From Roseibium sp. TrichSKD4 (GTDB taxonomy: Bacteria; Pseudomonadota; Alphaproteobacteria; Rhizobiales; Stappiaceae), in the NCBI RefSeq assembly GCF_000148725.1, contig NZ_GL476320.1:506317-555298 (forward strand): 48,982 nucleotides of DNA. The letters run 5' to 3'. Positions within the stretch are counted from its first letter, which is position 1. Each line of letters opens with the position of its first letter. The position numbers and the translations under genes were made by a program. This document shows, one piece after another, positions 2,454 through 33,602 of the stretch. Below the pieces are notes generated by a model that worked only from the letters and a program-made list of their open reading frames with translations, ran no database searches and had not been told where the DNA came from.

Positions 2454-2867
2454 CTGACGCTTTCAGGTTTGGGGAACGGCGACGAATAAGCCAAGTGCCA
2501 CAAATGGGCATCGGCTTCAATGCAATCAACCGGTCCGGAAAATCTCGTGCTGGCTATATTCCATAGACAGCAGGCAATGAAAAGGTCCGCAATGGGTATG
2601 AGACTTGCTGATTACGGGTTATCGAGCGAACTGTGAACCTCTATTTTTGATTGAAGTACTTCGTTATTTAAATAGCCGAAATCAGTCACTTTTAGTTGGA
2701 TGAAATCTGCACTATTCCAGAGGGTCTCCGGTGTGAATTTGCACACTCATTTCACAGTGAATTCACTTAGTATTTCTTGCGATGAGTGTTCCCATCATTG
2801 CGGGTTTTGAGTGGTTTAAAACCCATTCCTACCCGTTTCTCAATGGAAGTATTTTAGGAGAAATATT
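2454..2867. promoter_or_regulatory. Long AT-rich intergenic leader upstream of the peptide gene
   Basis: 414 bp with no credible gene (only ORFs of a dozen or so codons). It contains several symmetric elements before the peptide gene: GTGTG-N6-CACAC at 2731-2746, the perfect palindrome GTGAATTCAC at 2757-2766, and a possible hairpin GGGTTTT-N9-AAAACCC at 2802-2824. TTCAC/GTGAA occurs repeatedly between 2731 and 2766, which looks like an operator region. A good AGGAG lies 9 nt before the peptide start. No regulator gene is adjacent, so the factor is unknown. Confidence 0.5.
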
Positions 2868-3071
2868 ATGTCACAACGTGAGACACCGGATCTTTCACAC
2901 CTGTCCGGACGCGAAGTTGAAAAAGTTGCTGAAGCAATAGGGGCCGGCCCGCTTCGGTCATTGCTTGCAAACAAAGATGCAATTGCTGCACTCAATGTAG
3001 ACGATGTGAACAAGCTAGCCGAACTAGCAGCAGCATCACGGGCCAACTGTGGCGGTATTGGTTGCGGTTAA
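2868..3071 (+). CDS. Putative RiPP precursor peptide with C-terminal Cys-X4-Cys core
   Basis: A 67-residue peptide with a strong Shine-Dalgarno (AGGAG). Residues 1-58 are a charged, helical leader-like segment (LSGREVEKVAEAIG, NVDDVNKLAELAAA). The last seven residues are CGGIGCG, with its only two cysteines at C61 and C66. A long leader, a short Gly/Cys tail and a radical SAM/SPASM enzyme immediately downstream are the standard signature of a ribosomally made, post-translationally modified peptide. A strong hairpin separates the two genes. I do not recognise the precursor family. The product could be a thioether-linked (sactipeptide/ranthipeptide-like) peptide or a peptide-derived cofactor; the cysteines are the likely modified residues. 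No transporter or protease is adjacent. Confidence 0.75.
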   Translation: MSQRETPDLSHLSGREVEKVAEAIGAGPLRSLLANKDAIAALNVDDVNKLAELAAASRANCGGIGCG

Positions 3072-3080
3072 TTGTGATGA

Positions 3081-3112
3081 GCGGCACCTGTTTCGGGTGC
3101 CGCTTTATTTTT
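3081..3112 (+). terminator. Attenuating terminator between precursor and maturase
   Basis: Perfect 8-bp stem GCGGCACC/GGTGCCGC with a 7-nt loop, followed by TTTATTTTT, 9 nt after the peptide stop codon and 30 nt before the maturase start. It would let the peptide be made in excess over the enzyme, as in many RiPP operons. Confidence 0.85.
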
Positions 3113-3142
3113 GTAGGATCTTTTTAAGAATTTAGGTGTCCC

Positions 3143-4612
3143 ATGTCTTTTGAAGTGAAAAATCCGCAAGGTATCGGTGAGAGATTCACTATTGTGTCCG
3201 CTGGCAATGATGATTTTTTATTCTTGCCTTCCGTCACAGGTCTTTACTCTTTGCCTTCGCAGTTAAAGTCTGAACTGGCGGGCTTTCGATCTGACAGTTT
3301 TTTGCAGAATTTGCCCGGTGAAAGAGAATACCAGGCCGGAATTCAAGCATTTTTTTCCGACTTTCTCGCTTCTCACAATGCGCCGAGTACCAATGACGTC
3401 TCGTGGCCAACCGAAAATAAAATAGAAGACTTGGTGCTCAACATCAGCCAGATATGCAATCTTGCATGTAGCTATTGTTATGCTGACGATTTGAATAGCG
3501 CAGGCAAAATAATGTCGAAGTCCGTGTGTCAGGAGGCATTGGACAGAGCTTATCAAATGAGTGACACCGGCCTGAAAAGCCTGAAATTTCTGGGCGGAGA
3601 GCCGACACTGGCTTTTGAAGAAATCAAGTATGCAGTTGAATATGCAGAGACCATATGCGCCGCTGAAGGTTATCGGCTGCCATCCTTTGTAATTGTTACA
3701 AATGGCACGAAAATAAATGCGGAAATGGCTCAGTTTTTTGCGAGCAAGAATTTCTATGTGCTGGTCAGCATGGACGGCCCACAAAGTATCCATAATCTTT
3801 TGAGGCCCTTTACTGGAGGGCGTGGTTCATATTCCAAGGCGTTGGATGCAATCGTTGAATTGAAGAAAAAGAATGTTGAGGTCGCCATTGAGGCTGTTTA
3901 CACGCAAACGCATTACAAAAATGGTGTCTCAATCCGCTGCCTTCTCGACCATTTCCTCGAGATTGGCATTCGCGAGATGCAGATTACTTTGGCTCTTGGG
4001 ACTTGGCATGGCGAGAATACGCAGTCGGAGATAAAAGAGGTTGCGTCTGACTTCGCGGCCGCTGCTCGCCGCTGTATCAGGTCTTTTCTGACAGATGATC
4101 CGTTTTTGCTACGCGGAATTCAATTCGTTATCGACGGATTTGCAAATAAAAAGAAGAATTCGCATGTCTGTGGAGCAGGTCGCACGTTTATGGCTGTAAA
4201 CTACGATGGCGCCGCCTATCCATGTTACCTTTTGGAGACATCGGAAACGGCATATGGTTTCGTGGGTAAAGAATGGAATGAAGAACGCTACGCGCTCATT
4301 TCTTCGAAATTCATGGAAAATGGCAAAGAGTATCATGACACTTGCAAAAAATGCTGGGCGAAAGAGATATGCCAGTCCTGTTTAGGGTCGTCTTTTCTAA
4401 TCGACAAGCAGATCTCTAAACCCCCAGCTTGGTTCTGTGCCACGCAAAAAACACTGATATCAAGCGTATTGGGTGAAATTGCTTCCGCTCTTCAAGGTGA
4501 GCAGAAAGAAGCATTTTTGGCAAACCTTTCCCATTTCTTGAAACCTCGTAAATTTGAGGAACGCGGAGAGGGTACAATTAAAGATCAAACGTTCGACAAG
4601 GCCATTGTTTAA
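3143..4612 (+). CDS. Radical SAM/SPASM peptide maturase
   Basis: 489 residues. Residues 1-90 resemble the N-terminal peptide-recognition (RRE/PqqD-like) region of RiPP maturases (FLFLPSVTGLYSL). The radical SAM CX3CX2C cluster is C105, C109, C112, followed by GGEPTL at 151-156 and a TNGT strand at 186-189. The C-terminal SPASM domain for auxiliary Fe-S clusters has C343, a GX4C at C361, then C401-X2-C404-X5-C410-X2-C413 and C432. Such enzymes make thioether, C-C or epimerised residues in peptides. Its substrate is almost certainly the Cys-X4-Cys peptide encoded upstream. The gene is visibly more AT-rich than its neighbours (poly-T runs, ATA/AAA codons), suggesting horizontal acquisition. The exact chemistry cannot be read from sequence. 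Confidence 0.92.
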   Translation: MSFEVKNPQGIGERFTIVSAGNDDFLFLPSVTGLYSLPSQLKSELAGFRSDSFLQNLPGEREYQAGIQAFFSDFLASHNAPSTNDVSWPTENKIEDLVLNISQICNLACSYCYADDLNSAGKIMSKSVCQEALDRAYQMSDTGLKSLKFLGGEPTLAFEEIKYAVEYAETICAAEGYRLPSFVIVTNGTKINAEMAQFFASKNFYVLVSMDGPQSIHNLLRPFTGGRGSYSKALDAIVELKKKNVEVAIEAVYTQTHYKNGVSIRCLLDHFLEIGIREMQITLALGTWHGENTQSEIKEVASDFAAAARRCIRSFLTDDPFLLRGIQFVIDGFANKKKNSHVCGAGRTFMAVNYDGAAYPCYLLETSETAYGFVGKEWNEERYALISSKFMENGKEYHDTCKKCWAKEICQSCLGSSFLIDKQISKPPAWFCATQKTLISSVLGEIASALQGEQKEAFLANLSHFLKPRKFEERGEGTIKDQTFDKAIV

Positions 4613-5658: not shown

Positions 5659-7042
5659 TTACTCAGGCTGATCGATGGGCAGGCCGCTTGGCACCCGGGC
5701 AGGCACACCAAAGGGCGGTGTGTCGACTGTGGAACCGGTAAGACCATTCAGAAACGCAATCAGGTCGGCAATTTCCGGATCGGACAGGGCAACCGGATCT
5801 ATGTCCAGTATGCGCTTCTGGCGCTCCATCTCCAACCGGTCCTTCCAGACCACGAAATCAATTGCCTCCAGCCACGGGCCGAGGCAATGCGCAAGTTCTC
5901 GTGTCAGCTTGCAAAGGCGTCTTTCGATCAAGGTGATGCGAGATACTTCAGCGTCGATAAGCGCCGTTGTGACCATAGGGAGCTGTCAGGGCCACGTTCC
6001 GCAGCATGGGTGTGCGAAAGCGGTAGGAGTCTTCCAACTGGTCACTTTCCCCCATGCGGCCCACATCGCGGACCATTGGGTCAAAACGCCGTGTGCGTCC
6101 CGGCCCAAATGGCGGCAAGCCGAGTGCATGAAATCTTTGATCACTCATGAGTTTACCGGAATGGCAGGCCGCGCAGTTGGCCTTGCCATAAAAGAGCAAG
6201 AACCCCCGTTTTTGTGCCTCCGTCAGAGCTTCCTTCTCGCCGCTGAGATACGCATCAAAAGGGCTGTCATAGCTGGTCCATTCCAGCGCCATGAAGGCAG
6301 CAAGCGCGTTGGCAATCTCGGTGATTGTCACCTGATCCGGACTGTTGATGTGATCGAAGGCTTCGACGAACATCTCACCATATTCAGGGATGACGCGCAC
6401 GCGTTTGGCCAAGATTGGCCATGCTGCATCAATCCGGTCATGGATCGCTCCGGCGATCTCGTTTTCCTTAGGGTTGCCCGCCATTTCAAACTGGGCAACG
6501 AGCGGAAAGATCGCCTGTGTGGCAAGGATCGAATTGAAGCCTTCTGGAAGCCACTCTTCAGCTGGTGAGTTGAAGCCGTTCTCAAAGGTCTCCGCAACGG
6601 ACAGGCGGCCATCATGGAAAAAGACCCGAAGATCTTTGGCGCCAAGGTTCCAAAGGCCCGGCGCATTGCGCGGGATGCGTTTTTTGATCCGGTCATCCCC
6701 TGTCCCGGCTGTGCGGGTGGGGCCAAGGCCGACACCGCCTTCACCAATTCCAAGGGACAGACCGTCAGACGTGCCGAATTCTGGATGATGGCAGGTCGAA
6801 CAGGCGATATTTCTGTTTCCAGACAGGATCTTGTCATAAAAGAGAAGTTGACCGATCTTGGCTTGTTGTCTGTCAAAGGGAAGAAAGTCATCGGCGGTCA
6901 AGGGCTCGGGCAGGGAGGTTGCCTGAGCCATCGGGGCAGAAGTAAGCCCCAACGCTAAAATGCTGAGGAGGAGCGCCCAACAATGTCTGCCATTCGTCTG
7001 CTTTTTGCTGGAGTATTCCTGCTGTGGCTCGCGCCCGCTCAT
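5659..7042 (-). pseudogene. MauG/cytochrome c peroxidase family dihaem protein, frameshifted
   Basis: Two c-type haem sites (CSTCHH and CAACHS) and the typical IPRNAPGLWNLG and RTPMLRNVALTAPYGHNGAY segments identify a periplasmic BCCP/MauG-type dihaem peroxidase with a signal sequence ending AQA. The main frame stops at 5948 just after GHNGAY. The expected C-terminal part (DFVVWKDRLEMERQ..., LSDPEIADLIAFLNGLTG) continues in another frame to 5659. At least one +1/-2 frameshift therefore lies near 5948-5980, and the segment between is hard to align in any frame. The start is uncertain; ATG 7042 (MSGREPQQ) would overlap the divergent Sel1 gene. The gene may be truly decayed or reflect a sequencing error. 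It sits directly upstream of the YeiH exporter. Confidence 0.8.
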
Positions 7043-7465
7043 GCGGAAATCGAACATGCGCGTGATTTGATGGAAGAGGGGCAGTTTGAAAAGGCGATGG
7101 AAGAGCTTTGGCCCGCAGCCCGCTCGGGCAATGCGGATGCCGAAGAGCTGATCGGCGTGATGTACGCCATGGGGCTCGGCGTTGAACGGGACGATCAGCG
7201 CGCGTTTGACTGGTATTTGCGCAGCGCCATGAAAGGCCATCCGGGCGCGCAATCTGGTGTTGGCTGGTATTATGAAGTCGGACGAGGTTTGCCTGCACCC
7301 GATCTTGTGCGGGCTTACATGTGGTACACGCTCTCTGCCATCGGAGGTGATCCCGATGCCGCCGTTTCTCTTGAAGAAGTGGTCAAGAAGATGACCAAGG
7401 CCGAAATCGAGAAAGCGCATATACTGGTCGCAGATTACAAGGTCTGGATGTACCCGTTTCGATAA
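6983..7465 (+). CDS. Sel1-repeat (TPR-like) periplasmic protein
   Basis: 160 residues, with a clear signal peptide (LLFAGVFLLWLAPAHA) and then Sel1-like repeats (AEELIGVMYAMGLGVERDDQRAFDWYLRSA; AQSGVGWYYEVGRGL). These form alpha-solenoid protein-interaction surfaces. GAGGAG lies 11 nt before the start. The 5' end overlaps the likely start of the peroxidase gene on the other strand, so the two are divergent or one start is misplaced. Function beyond protein binding is unknown. Confidence 0.85.
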   Translation: MSAIRLLFAGVFLLWLAPAHAEIEHARDLMEEGQFEKAMEELWPAARSGNADAEELIGVMYAMGLGVERDDQRAFDWYLRSAMKGHPGAQSGVGWYYEVGRGLPAPDLVRAYMWYTLSAIGGDPDAAVSLEEVVKKMTKAEIEKAHILVADYKVWMYPFR

Positions 7466-16433: not shown

Positions 16434-17210
16434 TTACTGCGGTTCAAGGGAACCGTAATAGGCAGCCAAAGCTGCAATTTCCTCATTTCCCATATTCACG
16501 GTCATGTTTTGCATCACCTGATTGGTGCGCAAATTGACCTTGTATTCAAACAAGGCCCGGATGAAGGCGTCCTTTGGCCAGCCCACAATGGAAGGAATCC
16601 CGTCGGCGCGTCCCGACGTTTGATGGCAAGTGACGCATTCGGTCGCAAGGTATTCACCGTAGGCAATATCACCCTCTAGCGCCATCGCAGCCGCTCCGAT
16701 CTCAGGTCGGGCATCTGTCGCTGGAGCATTTGCCTCATCTGAGGGAGCTGCTTCCGTGCTTTGCTTGAGATAAGTGATCAAATCAGCGCGGTCTTCAGCT
16801 TTTTTCAGACCGAGAAAGGACATTCTGGTCCCGGGTACGAACCCACGCGGCTTTTCAAGATAGGCATCAAGACTGGTTTCATCCCAGACCAGACCTTCTT
16901 CGCCTTTTTTCTTGAGCGCTGACGAGTATTTGAAGCCTTCAAGGGTGCCTGCTGTCCGGCCAAACAGACCGTCAAGGTGAGGGCCAACCCCATTCTTGGC
17001 GCCCTCGCCAAGCTCATGGCAGGCGCGGCACTTCTTGTAGACCGATGCTCCGCGCTCGGCATCCGATGCTGATGCAGCATTCCCGGTTAAGCCAACTGCT
17101 GCAGTCACGGTCAAAACATGCAGCAGGTTTTGCGTCCGAATTTGCAGTTCGGAAAATCTGATGTCCGCAACCTTTCTGGAAACGGTCTCCGTCCATGCAC
17201 CTAGCCTCAT
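16434..17210 (-). CDS. soxE: SoxE, dihaem c-type cytochrome
   Basis: 258 residues with two haem sites, CRACHE in a class I cytochrome c550-like N-terminal half and CVTCHQ in an FccA-like C-terminal half, joined by an Ala/Glu/Pro-rich linker. The GGAGGAAG ribosome site supports the ATG at 17210. This gives an unusually long polar stretch of about 27 residues before the hydrophobic signal segment (LLHVLTVTAAVGLTG). It is probably the electron acceptor for SoxF. The N-terminal half resembles the first half of SoxD encoded next door, suggesting domain sharing by duplication. Confidence 0.88.
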   Translation of the reverse strand: MRLGAWTETVSRKVADIRFSELQIRTQNLLHVLTVTAAVGLTGNAASASDAERGASVYKKCRACHELGEGAKNGVGPHLDGLFGRTAGTLEGFKYSSALKKKGEEGLVWDETSLDAYLEKPRGFVPGTRMSFLGLKKAEDRADLITYLKQSTEAAPSDEANAPATDARPEIGAAAMALEGDIAYGEYLATECVTCHQTSGRADGIPSIVGWPKDAFIRALFEYKVNLRTNQVMQNMTVNMGNEEIAALAAYYGSLEPQ

Positions 17211-17238
17211 AAAGGCTTCCTCCTAGGTGTTTTCATGT

Positions 17239-17263
17239 GTGGCGGGCACGAAGTGTCCGCCAC
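17239..17263 (-). promoter_or_regulatory. Hairpin between soxD and soxE
   Basis: An 11-bp stem GTGGCGGGCAC/GTGTCCGCCAC with one G-U type mismatch and a GAA loop, in the 86-bp gap between soxD and soxE. No T-run follows. It may act as an mRNA stabiliser or attenuator; role inferred. Confidence 0.5.
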
Positions 17264-17296
17264 GATTGTCTTTGTGTTTGGTCCTTTTAGGACGGA

Positions 17297-18406
17297 TCAA
17301 TCGACTGCGCCAACACCGGCGCTGTCGTCACCCCCATCTTCAGGTGTCACATCAAGGATGGCAGCCCGCATGGTGATTTCGATCGGATCAGCCTTACAGT
17401 CTTTCATGCAGGGTTCGGACTTTTCTGCATAATGCGGTTCTTCATAGCGTGCGTCTGGAATGAAGTTTTCCTCATTCGGCAACCGCACTTCCAAGAAGTT
17501 CTCATTGGAGAGCACAAATTCCTCATCATCCACGATGTCGTTGAGATAAAGGAGGTAGGCGGTGATGGCGTAAACGTCATCATCAGACAACGACCGTGCA
17601 TTGCCAAAGGGCATGGCGCGCCGCACGTAATCATAGACAGTCGACAGATATGGCCAATAAGAACCGATTGTCTTTTCAGGGCGATCATCAGTCAGTGTGT
17701 CATGTCCACCGGCCAGTATCGGCCAACGGCCAACGCCTTCACCGAAATCGCCATGACAGACTGCGCAGTTGTCTGTGTAGATCGGCTCGCCATCCGCAAC
17801 GCTGCCCGATCCAACAGGCAGACCTTGACCATCCGGACGGATGTCGATGTCCCAAGCCGCAACCTCCGCATCGGTCGCTTTTCGGCCAAGGCCAAACACA
17901 CCGCCCTCACGGGTGTTTGAGGTCGGCGCAGAGGTGGCAGCTGCGGTTTGAAGCGCTTCTTTTTCTGCCGTTGGCTCGGCACTGCTACTGTCCGAGCCGG
18001 ATGATGGGGCCGCGCTGGAGAACGTTGCGAGATACGCAAGAATGTTCTCCATGTCTGCGTCTTTGCGAAGACCGGCAAAGGCCATTTTGGTGCCTTTGAC
18101 GAAGTCCTTCGGCTTTTTCAGATATTGGGTCAGGCTATCTTCATCCCACACCAGACCATCAGTACCTGCTGCGATCATGGCCTTGGAATATTTGTAGCCT
18201 TCTATGGACCCGGCAGCACGACCATAGATTTCGTTCAGCTGCGGACCGACCTTGTTCTTCGCGCCGTCACCGACGGCATGACAGGCCTTGCATTTTTTAA
18301 AGACCTTTTCGCCTTTGGCCGCATCGCCTGCCGACGCCGAACCAGCGACCATCGCAGAGGCAACCAGAGCTGAGGTGAGGGCGAGTGACTTAACCAACTT
18401 CGACAT
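17297..18406 (-). CDS. soxD: SoxD, dihaem subunit of sulfane dehydrogenase SoxCD
   Basis: 369 residues. Signal peptide MSKLVKSLALTSALVASAMVAGSASA; two c-type haem sites, CKACHA (cytochrome c550-like domain) and CAVCHG (SoxD C-terminal domain), separated by a Ser/Ala/Glu-rich linker. It accepts electrons from SoxC during six-electron oxidation of the SoxY-bound sulfane sulfur. The start at 18406 lies inside the end of soxC (17-bp overlap), showing translational coupling; the upstream in-frame extension is rejected because it overlaps soxC and has no signal sequence. Confidence 0.95.
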   Translation of the reverse strand: MSKLVKSLALTSALVASAMVAGSASAGDAAKGEKVFKKCKACHAVGDGAKNKVGPQLNEIYGRAAGSIEGYKYSKAMIAAGTDGLVWDEDSLTQYLKKPKDFVKGTKMAFAGLRKDADMENILAYLATFSSAAPSSGSDSSSAEPTAEKEALQTAAATSAPTSNTREGGVFGLGRKATDAEVAAWDIDIRPDGQGLPVGSGSVADGEPIYTDNCAVCHGDFGEGVGRWPILAGGHDTLTDDRPEKTIGSYWPYLSTVYDYVRRAMPFGNARSLSDDDVYAITAYLLYLNDIVDDEEFVLSNENFLEVRLPNEENFIPDARYEEPHYAEKSEPCMKDCKADPIEITMRAAILDVTPEDGGDDSAGVGAVD

Positions 18407-19673
18407 TTTCAACCGTCCCGTCTTTTTGGACATACCACGTCTGGATGCCGTTATTGTGGTAGATCGAATTCTCGCCGCGGGCGGCTCTGAGTTCGTTTTT
18501 GGTGGGCTGATAGAAGCCATGCTCGTCCATCGCGCGGGACTGGAGAAGAAGTTCAGACCCGTCCCAGTCAATGTCGAGATAGAAGCGATGCAGGGACTTG
18601 GAGAGGCTTAGCCCGTCAATCCGCGCTGTAGTCCAGTTCCGACCCCCGTCAATGGAGACATCCACACGCTTGATACGGCCGTTCCCTGACCAAGCGAGGC
18701 CGGAAATCACCAGCGGACCCTTGCCGTGGGAGATCGGCATTTGCGGGCTTGGCGAGGTGATAACGGACTTTGGATCCATGACCCAGGTAAAGCGACGGGC
18801 TTTGCCGGTATCCAGAAGGTCGGTGTATTTGGAAGTCTCTTCGCGGTGATGCCAAGGCTGATCGCCCACTTCGAGACGTCGGAGCCATTTGACCCACATG
18901 TTGCCTTCCCAACCGGGAACAACCAGACGCAGTGGATAGCCCTGTTCCGGGCGCAGCGCTTCGCCATTCATTTTCCAAGCAACCAGACAGTCGTCCAGCG
19001 CTTTTTCCATCGGCACGGAACGGGTCATGTGTGAGGCATCCGCGCCTTCCGGCAGCACCCATTTGCCGTTGGTTTTGACGCCAGCTTCTTCCAAAAGCGT
19101 CTTCAGCTTTACCCCGGTATACATGACGTTGTGCACCATGCCGTGGGTGAACTGGCAGCCATTAAGCTGCGAGCCGCGCCATTCCATGCCGCCATTGGCC
19201 GCGCATTCGAGGAAGTAGACGTGGTTTTCACGTGGGAACCGCTTCAGGTCGTCCATGGTGAAAACAAGCGGCGTATCCACCAAGCCGTTGATCATCAGGC
19301 GATGATCTTGGGGACGGATTTGGGCAACCCCGCCATGGTGGCGCTCAAAGCACAGGCCGTTCGGCGTGATGATCCCGTCCAGCTCATGAAGCGGTGTGAA
19401 GTTGATGGAGGCAACTGCATCAGCGGTCAACCACGGAACATTCCGGCGCACCACTTCTGATTCAAACTCGGACGGCAGTCCGTAAGGGGCTGCATCAACG
19501 CCATCACCAAGATAGCGGTTCCAGTCCTGAATTTCGGTGATGACGGGATCGCCCTCAGCGCGGGCACCTGTTGCCGTGACCCCGGCAACAGCAGCGCCGC
19601 CAGTGGCAAGTCCGGCCTTGAGAAGCGACCGCCGGGAGAGGGACGGGGAGCCCTTGTCCTTTGTCTCAGTCAT
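18390..19673 (-). CDS. soxC: SoxC, molybdoprotein of sulfane dehydrogenase
   Basis: 427 residues of the sulfite oxidase family. Tat signal SRRSLLKAGLATGG; molybdenum-ligand cysteine C157 in YFLECAANGG; typical MEWRGSQLNGCQFTHGM and GAQ-independent dimer-domain strands towards the C-terminus. With SoxD it oxidises the outer sulfur of SoxY-cysteine persulfide in the periplasm. ATG 19673 follows GAGGA. The presence of soxCD means thiosulfate can be oxidised fully to sulfate without sulfur globules. Confidence 0.96.
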   Translation of the reverse strand: MTETKDKGSPSLSRRSLLKAGLATGGAAVAGVTATGARAEGDPVITEIQDWNRYLGDGVDAAPYGLPSEFESEVVRRNVPWLTADAVASINFTPLHELDGIITPNGLCFERHHGGVAQIRPQDHRLMINGLVDTPLVFTMDDLKRFPRENHVYFLECAANGGMEWRGSQLNGCQFTHGMVHNVMYTGVKLKTLLEEAGVKTNGKWVLPEGADASHMTRSVPMEKALDDCLVAWKMNGEALRPEQGYPLRLVVPGWEGNMWVKWLRRLEVGDQPWHHREETSKYTDLLDTGKARRFTWVMDPKSVITSPSPQMPISHGKGPLVISGLAWSGNGRIKRVDVSIDGGRNWTTARIDGLSLSKSLHRFYLDIDWDGSELLLQSRAMDEHGFYQPTKNELRAARGENSIYHNNGIQTWYVQKDGTVENVEVG

Positions 19674-19699
19674 GTGTTTGTCCTCAGGTCTTTGAGAAA

Positions 19700-21397
19700 T
19701 CAAATGCCAACCACCTTCACGGACTTGTTGTCCGGAAGCTTCACGGTCGGGTTCTTGGTGATGTGGTTTTCGACAACGTCCCAGATGGCCGGACCTTCCG
19801 TGCCTTCATTGACAGACGCCCAGCCAGCCACGACATATTCCTTTTGAGGGTCGATGGCTTCGCCGGTCGAGAGCAGGGTCATGTCGGTGATCCGCTCTCC
19901 GATATCCCTGTTCGGCGCAATCGTGTAACCCATGCCTCCAACGCGAACCATGTCGCCGCCCTGCTGATAATAGGGGTCCTTGTTGAAGAGGTTGTCGCCA
20001 ACATCTTCCAGGATTTCCTTCAGCATCTGGCCTGTCATCTTCGACCGATAGGCCGCCGGATATGTCATGGCGCAGGCGTTGTGCAGGTCTTCAAACGTGA
20101 TGTCTTGTCCCGGCAAGAGCGAGGTGCCCCATCTAAATCCAGGCGAAAGAGCAATCTGCGCGTCCCGCTCTTCAATCAGGGCCTGACAAATCAGATCATC
20201 AAATGTGCCGTTGAAGTTGCCTCTGCGATAAAGAAGGCTTTCGGTCGTGCCCAGCTTGCGAGCAAGATCGGCTTCATAAGGCGCGCGCACTTCATCGATC
20301 AGCGCTGCCATTTCCGCGTCAGGTGTGATGACGTCCGAGAAAATCGGGATCAGACGATACCCGTACCCGGCAACCTTGCCGTCCTTCACATCGAGGTCCA
20401 CACGGGAGACGAACTTGCCGTTGGAGCCGGATGCAATGACCAGCGTGTTGTTCACAATCACTGGCTCTGGCAGGGCGTCATGCGTGTGGCCGGTCAGGAT
20501 CACATCAATGCCATCCACCCGAGATGCAAGTTTGCGATCCACGTCGAAGCCATTGTGGGAGAGGAGAACCACAATATCTGCGCCTTCCGAACGGGCTTCT
20601 TCGACATGGGTCGCAATATCTTCCTCGCGAATGCCAAAGGACCAGCCGGGGATCATCCAGCGAGGATTGGCAATCGGAGTGTAGGGGAACGCCTGACCAA
20701 TGACCGCGACCTTGGAACCGCCGCGTTCAAACATTTTCCAGGCTTCAAAGGCGGGTTCATCCCACTCATTGTCGTAAATGTTCGATCCAAGGAACGCGAA
20801 GGGAAGTTCGTCAATCACCTCCTGAACACGGTCCTGACCATAGGTGAATTCCCAGTGGCCAGTCATGGCGTCCGGGTTCAGCGCATTCATCACCGTGATC
20901 ATGTCCTGACCTTCGGTGACGTTGGACGTGTAGCTGCCTTGCCAGGTGTCGCCGCCGTCGAGCAGCAGCACATTGTCGTTGCCGCGTTCGGCCCGAATGC
21001 GCTTGATGACCGTTGCCACACGGTCCATGCCGCCAACCTTGCCATAGGATTGGGCAAGCGCGGCAAAGTCGTCGGAGGTTAATGCGTGTGCATCTGGCGA
21101 GCCGGGCTGAATGTTGTAAAGTTTCAAAAAGTCCGCACCGGTCACATGCGGCGGCTTGCCTTCAACATCTCCAATTCCGAGGTTGATGGAAGGTTCGCGG
21201 AAATAGATCGGCTTCAACTGCGCATGAATATCGGTGATATGTATGAGTGTCAGGTTGCCGGTTGGCTGCATGGAAAGCAGCGCATCTTCGGTCAATCCCT
21301 GTTGCGCCATCAGGCGGGACCAGTTGCCAGCCATACCAGACCCTAGAAGGGCACTTGTGGCCGTCGCAGCCATCAGGAATTCGCGTCTTGAAAACAT
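19700..21397 (-). CDS. soxB: SoxB, thiosulfohydrolase
   Basis: 565 residues, Tat-exported (MFSRREFLMAATATSALLG). Dimanganese metallophosphoesterase-like domain motifs are HITDIHAQLKP, LLLDGGDTWQGS, GHWEFTYG, LLSHNGFDVD and GHTHDALPEP, followed by a 5'-nucleotidase-type C-terminal domain. It hydrolyses the sulfone group from SoxY-S-thiosulfonate as sulfate. The stop is 26 nt upstream of the soxC start. Confidence 0.97.
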   Translation of the reverse strand: MFSRREFLMAATATSALLGSGMAGNWSRLMAQQGLTEDALLSMQPTGNLTLIHITDIHAQLKPIYFREPSINLGIGDVEGKPPHVTGADFLKLYNIQPGSPDAHALTSDDFAALAQSYGKVGGMDRVATVIKRIRAERGNDNVLLLDGGDTWQGSYTSNVTEGQDMITVMNALNPDAMTGHWEFTYGQDRVQEVIDELPFAFLGSNIYDNEWDEPAFEAWKMFERGGSKVAVIGQAFPYTPIANPRWMIPGWSFGIREEDIATHVEEARSEGADIVVLLSHNGFDVDRKLASRVDGIDVILTGHTHDALPEPVIVNNTLVIASGSNGKFVSRVDLDVKDGKVAGYGYRLIPIFSDVITPDAEMAALIDEVRAPYEADLARKLGTTESLLYRRGNFNGTFDDLICQALIEERDAQIALSPGFRWGTSLLPGQDITFEDLHNACAMTYPAAYRSKMTGQMLKEILEDVGDNLFNKDPYYQQGGDMVRVGGMGYTIAPNRDIGERITDMTLLSTGEAIDPQKEYVVAGWASVNEGTEGPAIWDVVENHITKNPTVKLPDNKSVKVVGI

Positions 21398-21591
21398 TCA
21401 AGCCTCCGGTCAATCGGCGCACCTGAAAGGGGAGGTTGGTCAGGCATACTTTTCCCGTTAGCGCATAACAAAATCAGCACCTGAAACGGAAAAACCGATG
21501 TGTGTTCAATAATTTGGGCTTTGTGCCCGGTTATGGGTGCGGCAGCCTTGCCGCCGCACCATGGACGCGTTTTAGCGCCCAATCTCGCTCG
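21398..21591. promoter_or_regulatory. soxA-soxB intergenic region with hairpin
   Basis: A 194-bp gap, unusual within a tight operon. It contains a perfect 8-bp stem GGTGCGGC/GCCGCACC at 21536-21560, 31 nt after the soxA stop, with no T-run. This suggests mRNA processing or a second promoter before soxB; no clear -35/-10 pair is seen. Confidence 0.45.
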
Positions 21592-22458
21592 TTACTGGCG
21601 AACCGCAGGTGTTTCGACCGAAAGGCCGGCTCCTCGCCATGCCAAGTATAGTTCAAGTGCAGTAAACTCGTCGGAACCCCGCTTGTAGGGCACTGCACGG
21701 ATGTTTTTCATGCACCCCGAAAAGCGGCGGTGGATGGAGCCGAGCCCTTGCCATTTCAAGCGATAGGTCGGGAACCCGTTGATCTGACCCTGACTTAGGT
21801 GGTCAGCCCGGATCATGTTGCCATAATTGTCTTCGTGACAATTGGAGCAAGCCATATCGAGCTGGCCGACACGCGTATAATAGAGGTCCTTGCCCTTATC
21901 GAACCACTCGGCAGCCGGACCATCAACCTTGACGTCAACCGCCATGCCTCTGGACTGAAGGCCCAGATACGCGGTCATCGCTAGCATCTCAGAGCTTTCC
22001 CATTTCCATGGCTCTGCGCCCTGATGTTCCTTGCGGGACCAGTTGATGTGGTCTTCGAGGGTCATCAAAGTGCCCTCGCCCTCATGCCATTTTGGCATAG
22101 ATGCGCGAAGACCCTTCATGCTGTCCTCGGCAGCCCCGTGACAGGATGCGCAGGACTTGCCCGAAGACCCTTCAGCTGTGTCCCAGAGCTCTGCGCCATA
22201 GTCGACAGCAGTGAAACCTGGGTTGTCGAAGTCGTCTGTCTGCAGAGCCTGCGTTTCAACGGAACGAAACCGCCAGCCCGATAGAATTTCGTCCAGCGGA
22301 TGATCTTCAGGTGCAGCCGTTTTCGTTACTATTTCCACCCCATCAATGCTGAGTTCAGCATTCTCATCCGACAATGCCGGTTGAACGATGAGCGAAGCGG
22401 TCAGCCCGGCGCAGATAAGGGCAACCCACTGACGTCCATTCTTCAAAAGTTTAGTCAA
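21592..22458 (-). CDS. soxA: SoxA, dihaem subunit of the SoxXA cytochrome
   Basis: 288 residues using a TTG start at 22458, chosen because GGGAGGAG lies 5 nt upstream and a signal peptide (WVALICAGLTASLIVQPALS) follows; the ATG-led longer frame runs through soxZ. Haem sites are C103-X2-CH and C204-X2-CH, and C249 in FSGCMKNIRA is the cysteine that forms the catalytic persulfide haem ligand. With SoxX it attaches thiosulfate oxidatively to the SoxY cysteine. Confidence 0.94.
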   Translation of the reverse strand: MTKLLKNGRQWVALICAGLTASLIVQPALSDENAELSIDGVEIVTKTAAPEDHPLDEILSGWRFRSVETQALQTDDFDNPGFTAVDYGAELWDTAEGSSGKSCASCHGAAEDSMKGLRASMPKWHEGEGTLMTLEDHINWSRKEHQGAEPWKWESSEMLAMTAYLGLQSRGMAVDVKVDGPAAEWFDKGKDLYYTRVGQLDMACSNCHEDNYGNMIRADHLSQGQINGFPTYRLKWQGLGSIHRRFSGCMKNIRAVPYKRGSDEFTALELYLAWRGAGLSVETPAVRQ

Positions 22459-22513
22459 ATCGTCTCCTCCCGATCTGAAGCGTCGTCGGGCCGCGTCCTG
22501 CCCGCCGCAATCG

Positions 22514-22843
22514 TCAGTTGACCTTGATGTTCTTTTCGGTCTCGTACACGGAGCCATCATCGTCCACCCAAGTGAACTTGAAGGTGCCGGCTTCGTTGAC
22601 CTTTGCGTTGAACTGCAAATACGGATTCGCAGAAACCGCCGGATCGAGATCACATGAAAATACAATCTGACCGTTAAACTCGCAGGTGAACTTGTTGATG
22701 ATTTTGCGTGGAATCAATTCGCCGGTTTTCTTGTCTTTGCGCTGCCCGGATTCCATTGGATGGCTGATCAGGGTCTTGATCGTGATGACTTCGCCCTTGT
22801 CTGCCTTTTTTGGGACCTTAACGCGCGGTTTTGGAGTTGCCAT
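22514..22843 (-). CDS. soxZ: SoxZ, scaffold partner of SoxY
   Basis: 109 residues, an immunoglobulin-like beta protein with no signal peptide, exported with SoxY. Typical family strands: EVITIKTLISHPMESGQRKD, IPRKIINKFTCEFNG, GTFKFTWVDDDGS. It forms the SoxYZ carrier. It lies 24 nt after soxY. Confidence 0.97.
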   Translation of the reverse strand: MATPKPRVKVPKKADKGEVITIKTLISHPMESGQRKDKKTGELIPRKIINKFTCEFNGQIVFSCDLDPAVSANPYLQFNAKVNEAGTFKFTWVDDDGSVYETEKNIKVN

Positions 22844-22867
22844 AACTTGGTTCCTTTATCCCTGTCC

Positions 22868-23317
22868 TTAGCCGCCGCAGCCGCCGATGGTGACCTTGAC
22901 TTCTTTTCGGTCGATGAAGGTCGAACCGTCATTCATTTTCGCGACAGCAACGACGTTTTGCGTCTTGGCCAGACGAATACGTGTTTTCGCTTCGGCATCA
23001 CCGCTTATGGCGCTGAAGTGGAAGGTAGCCACTGCCGGGTTCGGATTTCCGTCTGCCAGAATGAGTACAGATGCGACGTAGCTGTCGGCCGTCATTGGGC
23101 TGTCCACTGTGACGCCAACTGGAACGGTATTTCCGTTTTCAGCGATTTCAGGCGTATCGAGTGAGATTTTGCCTTCAGCAGGAGTTGCCCCGCCAGTGAA
23201 TTCCATGATTGCAGCTTCGGTTGCGTCGGCATTAGCAAAGCTTACCTTCGTCCCGATGGCGAGGAAGGCTGCGGCACCGGCTGAAAGGCCGAGCGCTTCG
23301 CGTCTTGTGAGGGTCAT
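22868..23317 (-). CDS. soxY: SoxY, sulfur-carrier protein
   Basis: 149 residues. Tat signal (MTLTRREALGLSAGAAAFLA), Ig-like carrier domain and the C-terminal GGCGG swinging arm (C147), which carries all Sox intermediates covalently. SoxZ follows immediately. Confidence 0.97.
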   Translation of the reverse strand: MTLTRREALGLSAGAAAFLAIGTKVSFANADATEAAIMEFTGGATPAEGKISLDTPEIAENGNTVPVGVTVDSPMTADSYVASVLILADGNPNPAVATFHFSAISGDAEAKTRIRLAKTQNVVAVAKMNDGSTFIDRKEVKVTIGGCGG

Positions 23318-23336
23318 CCCTTACTCCTTGTGAGCC

Positions 23337-23801
23337 TTAGTTTTCTTTCAGTGTGAGCAAGTAGGCCACGACGTCTTCCACCTCTTGAGCGGAAAGAATG
23401 GTCTTGCCCTGAAACTTGTCGGTTACGCGAACGCCGAGGTCTGTGGTGTAGAACCCTGGCATGATCGTCTGATCACCGAATACTTCCTTGCTATTTATCA
23501 CAATGGCGCGCAACTGTTCTGCCGACCACCGGTCTGCCGCGCCGTTTAGTTCAGGGCCGACTTCACCATGAAACAGCTGTTCAGAAAGATCAGCATTTGC
23601 ATGGCACGCCAGACAGTTACCTTTCTTTCTGTCCGCAAAGGTCTCGCGTCCGGCGCCAGGGTCACCAGCCGCGCCAGTTAGCGAAGCTTTCACTTCCATG
23701 TCGACGATCTCGACTGTGTCCGGCGCTACAGTTCCTGCCTGAGCGGTGAGCCCAAACGTCATTGTTGCGACGGCGAGCGAATAAATCAGGCTCTTTGTCA
23801 T
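23337..23801 (-). CDS. soxX: SoxX, monohaem cytochrome c
   Basis: 154 residues. Signal peptide ending AQA, haem site C63-X2-CH67 (NCLACHA), and the probable axial methionine M114 in TIMPGFYT. Subunit of SoxXA. ATG 23801 is preceded by GAGGAGGA. It is first in the soxXYZAB block after a 172-bp gap holding a possible SoxR site. Confidence 0.96.
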   Translation of the reverse strand: MTKSLIYSLAVATMTFGLTAQAGTVAPDTVEIVDMEVKASLTGAAGDPGAGRETFADRKKGNCLACHANADLSEQLFHGEVGPELNGAADRWSAEQLRAIVINSKEVFGDQTIMPGFYTTDLGVRVTDKFQGKTILSAQEVEDVVAYLLTLKEN

Positions 23802-23886
23802 TGTGTCGGTTTTCCTCCTCAAAACGGATAATTGTCTCCGTTCCAATGCCGATTATTGAGTCTCGGCACTCTCCTCATTTAGAAAG

Positions 23887-23904
23887 ATATGAAATTTTGA
23901 ATGT
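23887..23904. promoter_or_regulatory. Candidate SoxR operator in the soxW-soxX gap
   Basis: ATATGAAATTTTGAATGT is an imperfect inverted repeat close in form to those at 25405-25424 and 28600-28617. It lies about 85 bp upstream of soxX in the gap where SoxR binds in other sox clusters. Operator role inferred. Confidence 0.5.
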
Positions 23905-23973
23905 GTTGTCGAGGCCCTTCGTTTGGCCGATGCGAACGCAGGTTAAACAACGCCCTATTTCTGCCAATCGGAC

Positions 23974-24561
23974 TTATTCACCCGACAGTCGACCTTCTTC
24001 CCGCAATTGGTTGATGATGCGAGCATGGTACTTCTGGAAGTGCTCGTCGCTCTCATAGCCCTTTTCATTGACCCATTTGAACATGTTCAAGAAGGTCCAT
24101 TTTCCGAAGGATCCGGGCATAGTTGCAACGGCCGCTTCGGCAACGGTCTTGTCCTCCGGAACGTCTTCCGGCAGAAACACGACAGTTGGCGTGAAGACAA
24201 AACCCCATTTACGAGCCGCCGATTTTTCGGAAAGTTCCGAGCCATCAAGGTCAATGACTTCCTCGTCGCCAAACATGTTGTATTGAACGACAATGAAGTT
24301 CTCTTTGATGTAGTCGGCGACTTCGGGATCGGAGAGGACTTTCTCATGCATCTTGGCGCAGTAGATGCAGCCCCGCTGTTCAAAGACCAGAGCTAGTCGC
24401 TTTCCATCTTCTTTCGCAGTTTCAATATCTTCAGCGATATCCTTGAATGTGATTGTGAACCAGTCCTGCTTGTGCAGTCCATCTTCGCCCATGGTCGCGG
24501 CGGACAACGGGCTGGCCACCACAGCAAATGCGAACATCAATCCAGCAAGTGTCTTCCACAT
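23974..24561 (-). CDS. soxW: SoxW, periplasmic thioredoxin
   Basis: 195 residues with a signal peptide and the redox motif C65-I-Y-C68 (RGCIYCAK), plus a cis-proline loop (FTPTVVFL). It receives electrons from SoxV and keeps Sox components reduced. The ATG at 24561 follows GAGGAGG; the in-frame TTG just before it is less likely. Confidence 0.93.
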   Translation of the reverse strand: MWKTLAGLMFAFAVVASPLSAATMGEDGLHKQDWFTITFKDIAEDIETAKEDGKRLALVFEQRGCIYCAKMHEKVLSDPEVADYIKENFIVVQYNMFGDEEVIDLDGSELSEKSAARKWGFVFTPTVVFLPEDVPEDKTVAEAAVATMPGSFGKWTFLNMFKWVNEKGYESDEHFQKYHARIINQLREEGRLSGE

Positions 24562-24624
24562 CAATCAACCCTCCTCAAAGATCTGCAGTCGTTTGGACTG
24601 ATGATCGGGTCTCCACAAAAGTCC

Positions 24625-25359
24625 TCAGCCGACCTGACTGAAGATCGGAAATGTATCGAGCAGCCAATAGGCAATTGCTGACATTTGACCTGTCACGAAC
24701 AAGATGCCGGTGAGCACCAGAAAGCCGCCCATGATCTTCTCAACGGTGCCCATGTGCTTGCGGAAGTTGCCCGCCCATTTGAGAAATCGACCCGCGAAAG
24801 CGCCGGCAAGGATGAATGGAATTCCAAGGCCCATGGCATAAACGAACAGCAGCCCGGCACCATTCCAGATGGTCTCGGATGAGCCAGCGACAAAGAGAAC
24901 CGCAGCCAGAACAGGTCCAACGCACGGCGTCCATCCGAATGCAAATGCAAGGCCCATCACAAAGGCTCCAACGAGCCCGGCAGGCTTACTATCCACCTGA
25001 ACACGCGCTTCCCGATACAGAAGACCAATGCGAAAAACGCCGAGGAAATGAAGGCCCATGATGATGATGATGATGCCGGCAATGATTGAGAGCGTATCGA
25101 AGTGCTGGGCAATCGACTTGCCCACGACGCTTGCTGTTGCGCCAAGCGCCACGAAGACAACTGCAAAGCCGAACACAAAGGCGATGGACGAGTAAAGCAC
25201 CCGCCGACTGGTCTCAGCTGTTGCCGCTTCTCCCTTGAGCTCTTCAACACTGACACCGGCAAGATAGCAGAGATAAGGTGGGACAATTGGCAATACACAA
25301 GGCGAGACGAAAGACAAAAGCCCCGCCAGAAACGCCGCCCAGATGGAAACATCCAGCAT
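24625..25359 (-). CDS. soxV: SoxV, CcdA-type thiol:disulfide membrane transporter
   Basis: 244 residues with six membrane segments. Redox cysteines follow prolines: C21 in FVSPCVLPIVPPYLC and C146 in GWTPCVGPVLAAV. It passes electrons from cytoplasmic thioredoxin to periplasmic SoxW. ATG 25359 follows GAGGAG; the longer frame would extend into the divergent promoter. Confidence 0.95.
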   Translation of the reverse strand: MLDVSIWAAFLAGLLSFVSPCVLPIVPPYLCYLAGVSVEELKGEAATAETSRRVLYSSIAFVFGFAVVFVALGATASVVGKSIAQHFDTLSIIAGIIIIIMGLHFLGVFRIGLLYREARVQVDSKPAGLVGAFVMGLAFAFGWTPCVGPVLAAVLFVAGSSETIWNGAGLLFVYAMGLGIPFILAGAFAGRFLKWAGNFRKHMGTVEKIMGGFLVLTGILFVTGQMSAIAYWLLDTFPIFSQVG

Positions 25360-25404
25360 TTTGTGCCACTCCTCACGCACCACACACAATTGTATGAGTT
25401 CAAA

Positions 25405-25424
25405 ATATTCAAAAACTAATATAT
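25405..25424. promoter_or_regulatory. Candidate SoxR operator in the soxS/soxV divergent promoter
   Basis: An AT-rich imperfect inverted repeat, ATATTCA-N5-TAATATAT, sits centrally in the 112-bp gap between soxV and soxS. SoxR is known to bind the soxS-soxV intergenic region in other alphaproteobacteria. Similar repeats occur at 23887 and 28600. Confidence 0.5.
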
Positions 25425-25471
25425 ATTGCAATCCAAGAATTGTTCCGGGCCGTAGAGGCTTGAAATTTCAA

Positions 25472-25834
25472 ATGGCGACGATGATGCGAAACTGGATTTA
25501 CGGACTGGTTTTTCTACTCTGCTCAAGTTTTGGTGCTGGCGCAGCTGAGTTGCTGATTCTGGAGCAGCCGGGATGCCACTGGTGCGAGCGCTGGGATGAG
25601 GAAATCGGTCAGGCCTACCCGAAAACCAACGAGGGGCAGGTTGCCCCTTTGCGCAGGGTGGATATCACAGACCCTTGGCCGGATAATTTGGCCGATGTTC
25701 GACCGGAGCGCATGACGCCTACCTTCATTCTGGTCGAAAACGGAAAGGAAGTTGACCGTCTGCGCGGATATCCAGGAGAGCATTTCTTCTGGCCGATGCT
25801 GCAGCAGATGCTGGCAAAGCTTCCGTCCAACTAG
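25472..25834 (+). CDS. soxS: SoxS, periplasmic thioredoxin-like protein
   Basis: 120 residues with a signal segment (YGLVFLLCSSFGAGAA) and the motif C35-H-W-C38 (PGCHWCERWDEEIG), followed by MTPTFILV. SoxS reduces and reactivates SoxYZ in Paracoccus. ATG 25472 is used because the region upstream is the divergent promoter. It is followed by soxR on the same strand. Confidence 0.93.
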   Translation: MATMMRNWIYGLVFLLCSSFGAGAAELLILEQPGCHWCERWDEEIGQAYPKTNEGQVAPLRRVDITDPWPDNLADVRPERMTPTFILVENGKEVDRLRGYPGEHFFWPMLQQMLAKLPSN

Positions 25835-25947
25835 GTATTCGATGCGGCTGGCTCACCTCATAACCTTTGACGGGTAACGAACTGATCCGGCCACCTAGCA
25901 TTATATTAATCGAAAGTGTTATAGTTATCGCCTTCGGAACAAACGAT

Positions 25948-26340
25948 ATGGACACACCGGCAAATCGTATGAACTTCCCCGTCCTGAACAAGGATATCGA
26001 GCCCGCAGAGTTTGACGCACTTGTCGAACAGGCTCGCAAGGCAAGTGATCTGTTAAAGGCGCTTTCTCATGAGGTGCGCCTGCTGATCCTGTGTCTGCTG
26101 TCCGAAGGCGAGAAGTCGGTTTCCGAGCTTGAAGATGTGCTGTCCATGCCGCAGGCCGCTGTCTCTCAGCAATTGGCGCGCTTGCGTCTAGAAGGACTGG
26201 TCAAGTCTCGCCGTGAAGGCCGGATGATCTACTACAGCCTTGAAAACAAGGAAGTCAGTTCGATCATCTCCACGCTCTACGAGTTGTTTTGCCGGGAAGT
26301 TAGGCAGCCTGCCGAAGATATGCCTCTGGCCGCAGAATAA
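25948..26340 (+). CDS. soxR: SoxR, ArsR-family sulfur-responsive repressor
   Basis: 130 residues with an ArsR winged helix (LKALSHEVRLLILCLLSEGEKSVSELEDVLSMPQAAVSQQLARLRLEGLV). Two cysteines, C49 in the recognition domain and C115 near the C-terminus (ELFCREV), match the sensing pair of SoxR/sHdrR repressors, which form a sulfur bridge when sulfane sulfur is present. Probably represses the divergent sox operons and the neighbouring transporter genes. The start could also be the inner ATG (MNFPVL). Confidence 0.93.
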   Translation: MDTPANRMNFPVLNKDIEPAEFDALVEQARKASDLLKALSHEVRLLILCLLSEGEKSVSELEDVLSMPQAAVSQQLARLRLEGLVKSRREGRMIYYSLENKEVSSIISTLYELFCREVRQPAEDMPLAAE

Positions 26341-26499
26341 GCGTAAAAACAGCCTCTTATCCAATCGTCTAAGCTGCACTGCACCACGGCAAATGTTTGC
26401 CGGGGGCATATCATCTTGCTAGTCTCCGCTACGGAATATTTCCACTGTCGGGCGTGAGGATGCCAGACAAGTGAATAGAGGAGGCGACAGGGCGCTGAT
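26341..26499. other. Intergenic region upstream of soxT-like gene
   Basis: 159 bp with no ORF. It holds a small symmetric sequence (GGAATATTTCC, about 26431-26441) and a GAGGAGG about 20 nt before the next start. No clear match to the candidate SoxR sites was seen. Confidence 0.3.
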
Positions 26500-27600: not shown

Positions 27601-27630
27601 ACCGCCGCCTCACAGGCGCGGTCTCGCTAC

Positions 27631-28584: not shown

Positions 28585-28599
28585 GCTGCTCTCCTCCAC

Positions 28600-28617
28600 A
28601 TATTCAATTATTTGAAT
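28600..28617. promoter_or_regulatory. Candidate SoxR operator before the MBL gene
   Basis: ATATTCAA-TTA-TTTGAAT contains the perfect inverted repeat ATTCAAATAA-like half-sites ATTCAA/TTGAAT separated by 4 nt. It is the most symmetric of three related sites and lies between the divergent MBL gene and the soxT-like pseudogene. Confidence 0.55.
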
Positions 28618-28727
28618 TTATCCATGCTTCCTTGAGGGACGTCAATGCGAAACCGGAGTTCAAGCGGGATGAATGCGCAAGAGCCGCAGCGTCAGGCGCG
28701 GTGCGCAATCATAACTGAGATTGAACA

Positions 28728-31056: not shown

Positions 31057-31068
31057 CTTCGATCTTAT

Positions 31069-31073
31069 ATCAG
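31069..31073. repeat. Target-site duplication of nested element, left copy (ATCAG)
   Basis: ATCAG repeated at 32730-32734, flanking the nested element. IS1380 elements usually duplicate about 4 bp, so the exact end may differ by one base. Confidence 0.65.
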
Positions 31074-32729: not shown

Positions 32730-32786
32730 ATCAGATCAAGGGCGTAAGTTGAATCCCGAGAGGCGCGCAAACGCCAATATATTGGC
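32521..32786. other. 3' part of IS1380 element and IS66 tnpB-tnpC gap
   Basis: No gene. Holds the IS1380 right terminal repeat (32713-32729), the target duplication and the short remaining IS66 sequence before the tnpB stop codon. Confidence 0.6.
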
Positions 32787-33538: not shown

Positions 33539-33602
33539 TAACGAAAATGGACATTATCACCCCACCGCGCTCCCCGTCAGAGCGGGAATACCGAACGCTC
33601 AC

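Follow-up and report, generated by a model that had tools for sequence, protein, structure and literature searches.

A peptide gene and a radical SAM/SPASM enzyme gene in Roseibium sp. TrichSKD4: a rare, conserved pair outside the named maturase families tested

What is a short gene with a Cys- and Gly-rich tail doing directly upstream of a radical S-adenosylmethionine (SAM) enzyme gene? The stretch analysed, here called the window, is 48,982 nucleotides (nt) of Roseibium sp. TrichSKD4 (contig NZ_GL476320.1). Both genes lie on its forward strand: an open reading frame (ORF) of 67 codons at 2868..3071, and an ORF for a 489-residue radical SAM/SPASM enzyme, the proposed maturase, at 3143..4612, which starts 71 nt after the peptide gene. 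An earlier note, made from the letters alone, took them for an unassigned pair resembling those that make ribosomally synthesized and post-translationally modified peptides (RiPPs). The reading favoured here, with moderate confidence, is a two-gene RiPP-type cassette of an unnamed precursor and maturase, in which a Cys thioether within a C-x-G-[I/V]-G tail is the likeliest modification and the product is probably intracellular. The pair itself, its conservation and recurrence and the class of the enzyme are observed, whereas substrate relation, bond, site, expression ratio and role are inferred. Unassigned radical SAM RiPP pairs are numerous; this one stands out for an active-site change that matches the tail and for a distant sister pair.

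The peptide is as the earlier note described it. Translation starts at an ATG preceded, at 2856..2861 (+), by a Shine-Dalgarno-like AGGAGA read in the sequence 6 nt ahead, and the product ends in NCGGIGCG with its only Cys residues at 61 and 66. The tail CGGIGCG (codons 61-67; 3048..3068, +) is the proposed site of modification. A modest structural model (mean predicted local distance difference test score, pLDDT, 60) predicts helices at 14-26, 28-34, 36-40 and 44-60 and an unstructured tail at 61-67. Pfam gave nothing for the peptide (E up to 1), and its two NCBIfam matches (E 0.023 and 0.05) were meaningless, being far below cut-off.

Relatives were sought in genome_contigs, where 84,980 species are represented by one genome apiece, and in viral_contigs. 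Exact 8-residue patterns from the window enzyme found no relative in the former, and single-sequence patterns likewise found none in the latter. The degenerate pattern CGG[I/V/M]GCG followed by TAA or TGA matched 100 stretches of genome_contigs, of which three encode relatives by tblastn of the peptide: those of Hoeflea MAG (metagenome-assembled genome) M_23 (L112), Hoeflea MAG-81 (L122) and Roseovarius sp. A-2 (L083). The other 97 gave no convincing match to the peptide, a single hit at E 0.37 lying off the tail. All three genomes also carry the enzyme, at 62 and 61% identity in Hoeflea and 56% in Roseovarius. The same search (E up to 1e-20) found no enzyme in four further genomes with chance tail matches only.

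The three related peptides are 73-76% identical to that of the window over most or all of their length. Across the four peptides, two of which (the Hoeflea copies) are the same protein, 44 of 67 columns are invariant, including the last ten residues, RANCGGIGCG. Between lineages the peptide gene shows synonymous divergence (pS) of 0.73-0.87 vs non-synonymous divergence (pN) of 0.15-0.17, its synonymous sites being near saturation, and the ten tail codons carry five or six synonymous changes and no amino-acid change. By this substitution pattern, the peptide is evidently under purifying selection. Conservation of the tail, a check that the earlier note had proposed, is borne out in 4/4 rows, with synonymous changes only, though the search pattern itself fixed CGG-x-GCG, with Ile, Val or Met permitted at 64. 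The conserved parts free of this ascertainment are the choice of Ile64, R58-N60 and the leader.

The enzyme is a radical SAM/SPASM protein, as first read, with both Pfam domains above cut-off (Radical_SAM 62.0 bits, cut-off 29.5; SPASM 22.1 bits, cut-off 21.5). The radical SAM cluster motif CNLACSYC (CX3CX2C, codons 105-112; 3455..3478, +) and seven Cys of the SPASM domain (343, 361, 401, 404, 410, 413 and 432; 4169..4438, +) are invariant in the four family members. The ‘full SPASM set’ of the earlier note is therefore right in number but not in spacing: the last block is CX2CX5CX2C, one residue short, in the family, in the sister enzyme introduced below and in a Methylocystis enzyme (6/6), and CX2CX5CX3C in 9/9 reference enzymes. 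The short form is also recorded for AhbD in passages of PMC10452713.

Does the enzyme belong to a described family? Against NCBIfam it gave 75 matches at E up to 1, and scores cover the best 25 of these; none of the 25 reached its curated cut-off, in agreement with the earlier failure to match a named class. The best scores were those of PapB (NF047865; 180.8 bits, cut-off 340), nif11 (NlpM, TIGR04064; 147, cut-off 518.7), CcpM (138.5, cut-off 500), QhpD (TIGR03906; 137.7, cut-off 453) and SCIFF (TIGR03974; 137.3, cut-off 425). GggB (103.6, cut-off 650), CefB (69.3, cut-off 600) and GrrM (67.6, cut-off 310) scored lower, and the mycofactocin and Xye models, lying outside the best 25 of 75, score lower than those listed. 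The three other family members match mostly the same models, and on a comparison of best E-values only, it is the window enzyme that matches PapB best of the four. In a test for anti-phage defence the enzyme matched only three viperin models, weakly (best 50.4 bits) and through the radical SAM core, and a defence role was rejected.

PapB is the closest model, and the PapB/PapA (freyrasin) system resembles the window pair in having a precursor gene beside a radical SAM/SPASM maturase and, presumably, Cys as the sulfur donor. That the window enzyme is simply a divergent member of this ranthipeptide family is nevertheless very improbable, as the three PapB features tested (the cut-off, a CX3D/E motif and Arg372) all fail. 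Passages of PMC9413430 report that PapA is linked in CX3D motifs, that changing Arg372 of PapB to Ala abolishes activity, and that models put this residue near the substrate carboxylate; the ligands of auxiliary cluster 1 are given as C352, C370 and C421 in part of PMC10470005. By numbering, Arg372 is the Arg of a CHR motif, two residues past ligand Cys370, and its place is taken in the window enzyme by Leu363, the last residue of CYL (codons 361-363; 4223..4231, +). The tail, for its part, holds no Asp or Glu, the nearest acidic residue being Glu52. These two features agree with one another, and consequently the acceptor of the window enzyme should not be a carboxylate residue. The SPASM spacing also differs, and an Anaerococcus PapB scoring above the cut-off lies across a strongly supported branch (99/99) from the family.

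That branch comes from a tree of 15 rows, which serves as a guide only, as long branches meet in it and its rows were picked by similarity. The four family enzymes group with support of 100/99 and the sister joins them with 81/72; the 99/99 branch splits these five and the Methylocystis enzyme from nine others, namely two QhpD, NlpM, SCIFF-type, PapB, two halogenase-cluster, Thermococcus and Rhizobium enzymes. PapB was named by its hidden Markov model (HMM) score (359.1 of 340), NlpM and one QhpD by their records and the others by their neighbours; the Acetoanaerobium reference is called SCIFF-type from an adjoining Cys-rich ORF and not by HMM. The motif that begins at the Cys of the first SPASM block reads CHR in 8/9 references and CHQ in the SCIFF-type enzyme, with CYL in the family and sister and CNM in Methylocystis.

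The remaining known systems resemble the pair in part. The best match of the enzyme among solved structures is 5WGG, which we take to be CteB, of the CteA/CteB type of SCIFF system. Sections of PMC8326336 report that the acceptor in SCIFF can be Thr, a residue without a carboxylate; however, SCIFF peptides have six Cys in 45 residues vs two in 67 here, the SCIFF cut-off is far from reached, and the Acetoanaerobium reference keeps CHQ and CX2CX5CX3C. QhpD (PeaB), which acts on QhpC, is a SPASM thioether former whose target functions intracellularly as a component of a protein. Unlike the proposed maturase, it falls under a model whose cut-off the window enzyme misses, joins Cys to Asp/Glu (as stated in part of PMC8326336), and keeps CHR in its two references; no subunit of quinohemoprotein amine dehydrogenase (QHNDH) was found among the seven window neighbours scanned with Pfam. 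NlpM (Nif11-type) shares a leader with a short core and has the second-best score, but its cut-off is missed too and the window peptide lacks any Pfam match. Streptosactin, the product of the GggB system, has small thioether rings in a Gly-rich core, a likeness to the window tail. It is, in passages of PMC8326336, a sactipeptide without the usual hairpin topology, streptococcal and antimicrobial, and the GggB score of the window enzyme is again well short.

Some of the enzymes gathered for comparison merit a note of their own. Plasmids of Bradyrhizobium septentrionale (L001 3932-5278) and Mycetohabitans endofungorum (L002 3923-5287) each carry a QhpD-like enzyme, that of L001 scoring 335.9 against the QhpD cut-off of 453. 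The two operons are similar, each also encoding a tryptophan 7-halogenase, a ferritin-like protein and two hypothetical proteins. The Methylocystis parvus plasmid pMpar-2 (L003 3989-5116) carries an orphan SPASM enzyme among transposition genes, without an NCBIfam match at 1e-40. Directly upstream of the Anaerococcus plasmid PapB (359.1 bits) lies a 50-residue ORF containing Cys and Asp (L173 109-261), likely PapA.

Further evidence that peptide and enzyme belong together comes from another proteobacterial class. A profile of the four enzymes (E up to 1e-35) matched 2/249 genomes of the phylum: the known Hoeflea and a second genome, G1273, whose class (48 genomes searched) excludes Hoeflea. 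The sister enzyme (L162 1498-2775, minus strand) is 29% identical to the window enzyme over 367 columns. A 62-residue ORF, preceded by GAGGAGAG, lies 69 nt after it, and the tail of this ORF, NFCCSGVG, holds its only Cys residues. The local alignment score of the window peptide with the sister peptide was reached by 1 of 1000 shuffles, that of the Roseovarius peptide by 2 and that of the Hoeflea peptide by 23; with leaders alone the figures were 5 (window), 18 (Roseovarius) and 30 (Hoeflea) of 1000. C-[GS]-G-[IV]-G is common to both kinds of tail, and the pair represented in each of them is C61 and I64. Further searches of the taxonomic family (1/4) and class (1/48) of G1273 and, with a joint profile, of the class of Hoeflea (1/385, apparently the same draw as the 385-genome search described later) returned only known members.

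A rival to the substrate relation is that the peptide is an unmodified regulatory or metal-binding small protein, its Cys pair engaged in a metal site or a disulfide, and that the enzyme acts on something else. The leader is indeed conserved like a folded domain, CGGIGCG could conceivably bind metal, and, as it was the peptide tail that picked out three of the four genomes, the pairing is partly a matter of selection. Three observations argue the other way. The enzyme is missing from the four genomes with chance tail matches only; the neighbourhoods in the window, in Hoeflea and in Roseovarius were found to have no gene in common but those of the peptide and the enzyme; and the sister enzyme, which turned up with no peptide query, also stands beside a Cys/Gly-tailed peptide. 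This explanation is accordingly regarded as improbable. Regarding the neighbourhoods, when window ORFs of at least 60 residues were compared with those in the 16-20 kb that surround each copy in Hoeflea and Roseovarius, the enzyme was the sole shared protein; the peptide was hidden there under longer overlapping frames and its sharing is taken from the tail and tblastn searches. The two Hoeflea neighbourhoods share surroundings with each other.

If the peptide is the substrate, as favoured here, what is done to it? Of the five top-scoring models, three (PapB, QhpD and SCIFF) describe thioether formers, according to portions of PMC8326336 and PMC9413430, and both kinds of tail contain Cys. The alternative is a true substrate with other chemistry: a C–C bond, epimerisation, Cys oxidation, or a small redox cofactor made from the tail. 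RiPP radical SAM enzymes do carry out several reactions (PMC8326336, in part), the Arg essential to thioether-forming PapB is replaced in the window enzyme, and the small tree, long branches notwithstanding, sets the enzyme apart from QhpD, SCIFF-type, PapB and NlpM. Given the thioether formers among the nearest models, such chemistry is considered unlikely, although less so than an unmodified protein.

For the cassette with a thioether product, the following course may be proposed. The first gene would supply a 67-residue helical substrate protein, probably in excess, and a hairpin would lower read-through into the enzyme gene. The enzyme would bind the helical body, which in turn would guide the C-terminal tail into it. 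A 5'-deoxyadenosyl radical could then abstract hydrogen from a carbon of Ile64 or of a Gly, and coupling to the sulfur of Cys61 would follow, a step in which an auxiliary cluster may take part. PapB, for comparison, abstracts hydrogen from its Asp, according to a section of PMC10470005. The best guess for the acceptor is the non-acidic Ile64 (C-alpha or C-beta), with a Gly C-alpha as the alternative, and Cys66 may provide a second link, remain free or serve as a metal ligand. The modified protein would probably remain in the cell with its leader attached and work there.

The arrangement of the locus is compatible with an excess of substrate. Between peptide and enzyme, at 3079..3105 (+), 12 pairs (8 of them G-C) form a predicted hairpin followed by a T-run, a probable attenuator or stabiliser of the mRNA end. 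A terminator scan alone is no evidence for it, with one site found vs an average of 2.7 in shuffles of the region. The folding energy of the gap, on the other hand, was reached by only 1 of 200 dinucleotide shuffles for the window, 3 and 0 for the two Hoeflea gaps (75-76 nt long) and 4 for Roseovarius. The hairpins are of unrelated sequence in the Hoeflea gaps and in Roseovarius, where the hairpin lies between an insertion end and the enzyme. An inter-gene hairpin in three lineages would suit a substrate that is produced in larger amounts than its enzyme.

Where the product acts is suggested by what the neighbourhoods lack. The earlier note saw no transporter or protease nearby; among the 10 neighbours compared with Pfam no dedicated peptidase or peptide exporter was found, and none is shared. 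As no protease or transporter gene is shared and the whole peptide is conserved, the product is probably intracellular. A contrary possibility is an exported RiPP, a bacteriocin or a signal, with its protease and transporter encoded elsewhere in the genome. Many RiPPs use proteases encoded elsewhere, and the scattered distribution and low G+C (GC) content of the cassette suggest a mobile, niche trait. Yet no GG-type cut site ahead of the tail can be read in the peptide, and a product consisting of the free tail would be very small. Together with the want of an exporter or peptidase among the scanned neighbours, this makes export unlikely.

The window neighbours are methionyl-tRNA synthetase (tblastn matches named metG), an HxlR regulator, a PF03601 membrane protein, a MauG-like peroxidase, a Sel1 protein and a tripartite ATP-independent periplasmic (TRAP) transporter. 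Elsewhere, the neighbours compared with Pfam were a PfkB kinase and an ORF of no family in Hoeflea, and CcmE in Roseovarius. A simple pattern for an IscR/RirA-like iron box upstream matched at differing places in the window and Hoeflea and nowhere in Roseovarius. The MauG-like protein, a di-haem cytochrome c peroxidase (PF03150) at 5948-7420 on the other strand, is near the cassette and is not shared with Hoeflea or Roseovarius; in other systems, enzymes of this kind complete the maturation of protein-derived cofactors. In Roseovarius, ORFs that by eye resemble pqqE, pqqC and pqqB (L160 6761-9787) lie about 6 kb upstream of the peptide gene, with none near the window cassette; synthesis of pyrroloquinoline quinone (PQQ) itself uses a SPASM enzyme. 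Farther along the window, 16434-29222 looks by eye like a thiosulfate-oxidation region; it encodes several proteins that look exported and a relative of SoxB (19700-21397), the one protein compared, which is 65-67% identical to its best eight plasmid copies, all alphaproteobacterial. An ORF cluster at 29530-33956 resembles transposase genes, IS66-like by eye.

How widespread is the cassette? Whole-genome searches with the enzyme gave matches in 1/390 genomes of the order of Roseovarius, 1/397 of the order of Hoeflea and 1/385 of the class of Hoeflea, the order and class sets being samples of larger groups, and by genus in 2/18 Hoeflea and 1/84 Roseovarius genomes (E up to 1e-60 in one search and 1e-50 in the others). 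Every match was one of the three known genomes, and no new close copy appeared among those searched. With so few enzyme-positive genomes across the samples, the cassette looks rare and scattered. In viral_contigs, patterns from family alignments found no relative, and a tail scan returned 46 stretches, none a convincing one. Enzyme matches on plasmids (236 records) and phages (96 records) were all under 60% identity, as were those of the sister enzyme on plasmids (134 records), and the window and sister peptides gave chance-level matches only on plasmids. The enzyme has a GC content of 45.2% vs 54.6% for the window, only 1 of 190 windows of 1500 being as low, and the cassette is the lowest-GC part; the enzyme is likewise low against its surroundings in Hoeflea (59.2 vs 64.7%) and Roseovarius (54.6 vs 62.5%). 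This low GC suggests horizontal transfer. In open-licence literature, CGGIGCG turned up only in lamprey keratin-associated proteins, and combinations of radical SAM, Roseovarius, Hoeflea and RiPP returned unrelated work only; neither result shows the pair to be undescribed.

Several observations weigh against the reading as a cassette of substrate and maturase. As relatives were found by the CGG[I/V/M]GCG pattern, tail identity and pairing are partly ascertained, and confidence is slightly lowered because three of the four pairs were found in this way. For the same reason, it says little that enzyme without peptide, which the earlier note would have counted against its proposal, was not seen among close copies. 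Among distant enzymes the outcome is mixed: the sister has its Cys/Gly-tailed peptide, but no such peptide was seen beside the Methylocystis enzyme with the same short SPASM block. The second Cys is placed differently in the sister tail, and the known extent of the family is three lineages and one distant sister only.

The N-terminus of the enzyme, described earlier as resembling a RiPP recognition element (RRE), belongs with these points, as this part of the description was not confirmed. A poor model from three sequences (mean pLDDT 47) puts strands at 16-20, 23-28 and 33-36, then helices at 39-49 and 61-77, and strands followed by helices is the order expected of an RRE, although it proves none. 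Profile comparisons of this region by hhalign were not significant with QhpD, SCIFF, PapB and Thermococcus (4/5) and weak (P 0.005) with the halogenase-cluster pair.

Finally, the two genes are adjacent in 3/4 genomes (the window and two Hoeflea), three of these four genomes having been found by the peptide tail, and in Roseovarius they seem to be parted by an insertion sequence with a TTAA duplication. There contig 7 (L160) runs on for 126 bases beyond the last codon of the peptide, and contig 11 (L159) for 238 beyond the enzyme match. The two contigs carry inverted ends that differ at one position, TTAA-CCCGGATAATTCA and TGAATTATTCGGG-TTAA, as expected of such an insertion. It seems to have hit the stop codon of the peptide gene without disrupting the reading frame; on the other flank, the enzyme gene starts 63 nt away from TTAA. 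A Dinoroseobacter plasmid has, about 2.5 kb from a transposase gene of the IS1380 family, a stretch with 78% identity to the end of contig 7, a likeness that weakly suggests an IS1380-like element; the element itself is absent from the assembly.

A bolder and less likely extension of the favoured reading can be offered tentatively. The pair could represent a new class of intracellular modified proteins in which a non-polar steering residue lets Cys be linked to an unactivated Ile or Gly and the tail serves as a built-in cofactor or sensor on a helical carrier. The CGGIGCG and CCSGVG forms would then be branches of one scattered, horizontally moved family.

The system is a compact and rare precursor/maturase pair outside the named families tested, and its seven-residue core is a simple one for mass spectrometry. 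The second residue past the auxiliary-cluster Cys may help to predict the acceptor: it is Arg in the Asp/Glu users PapB and QhpD, Gln in the SCIFF-type enzyme and Leu here, with the limit that Arg is also found in the NlpM, Thermococcus, halogenase-cluster and Rhizobium enzymes, whose acceptors are unknown. If its product is intracellular, the pair would join the few RiPP-like proteins that serve as parts of the cell and not as secreted compounds.

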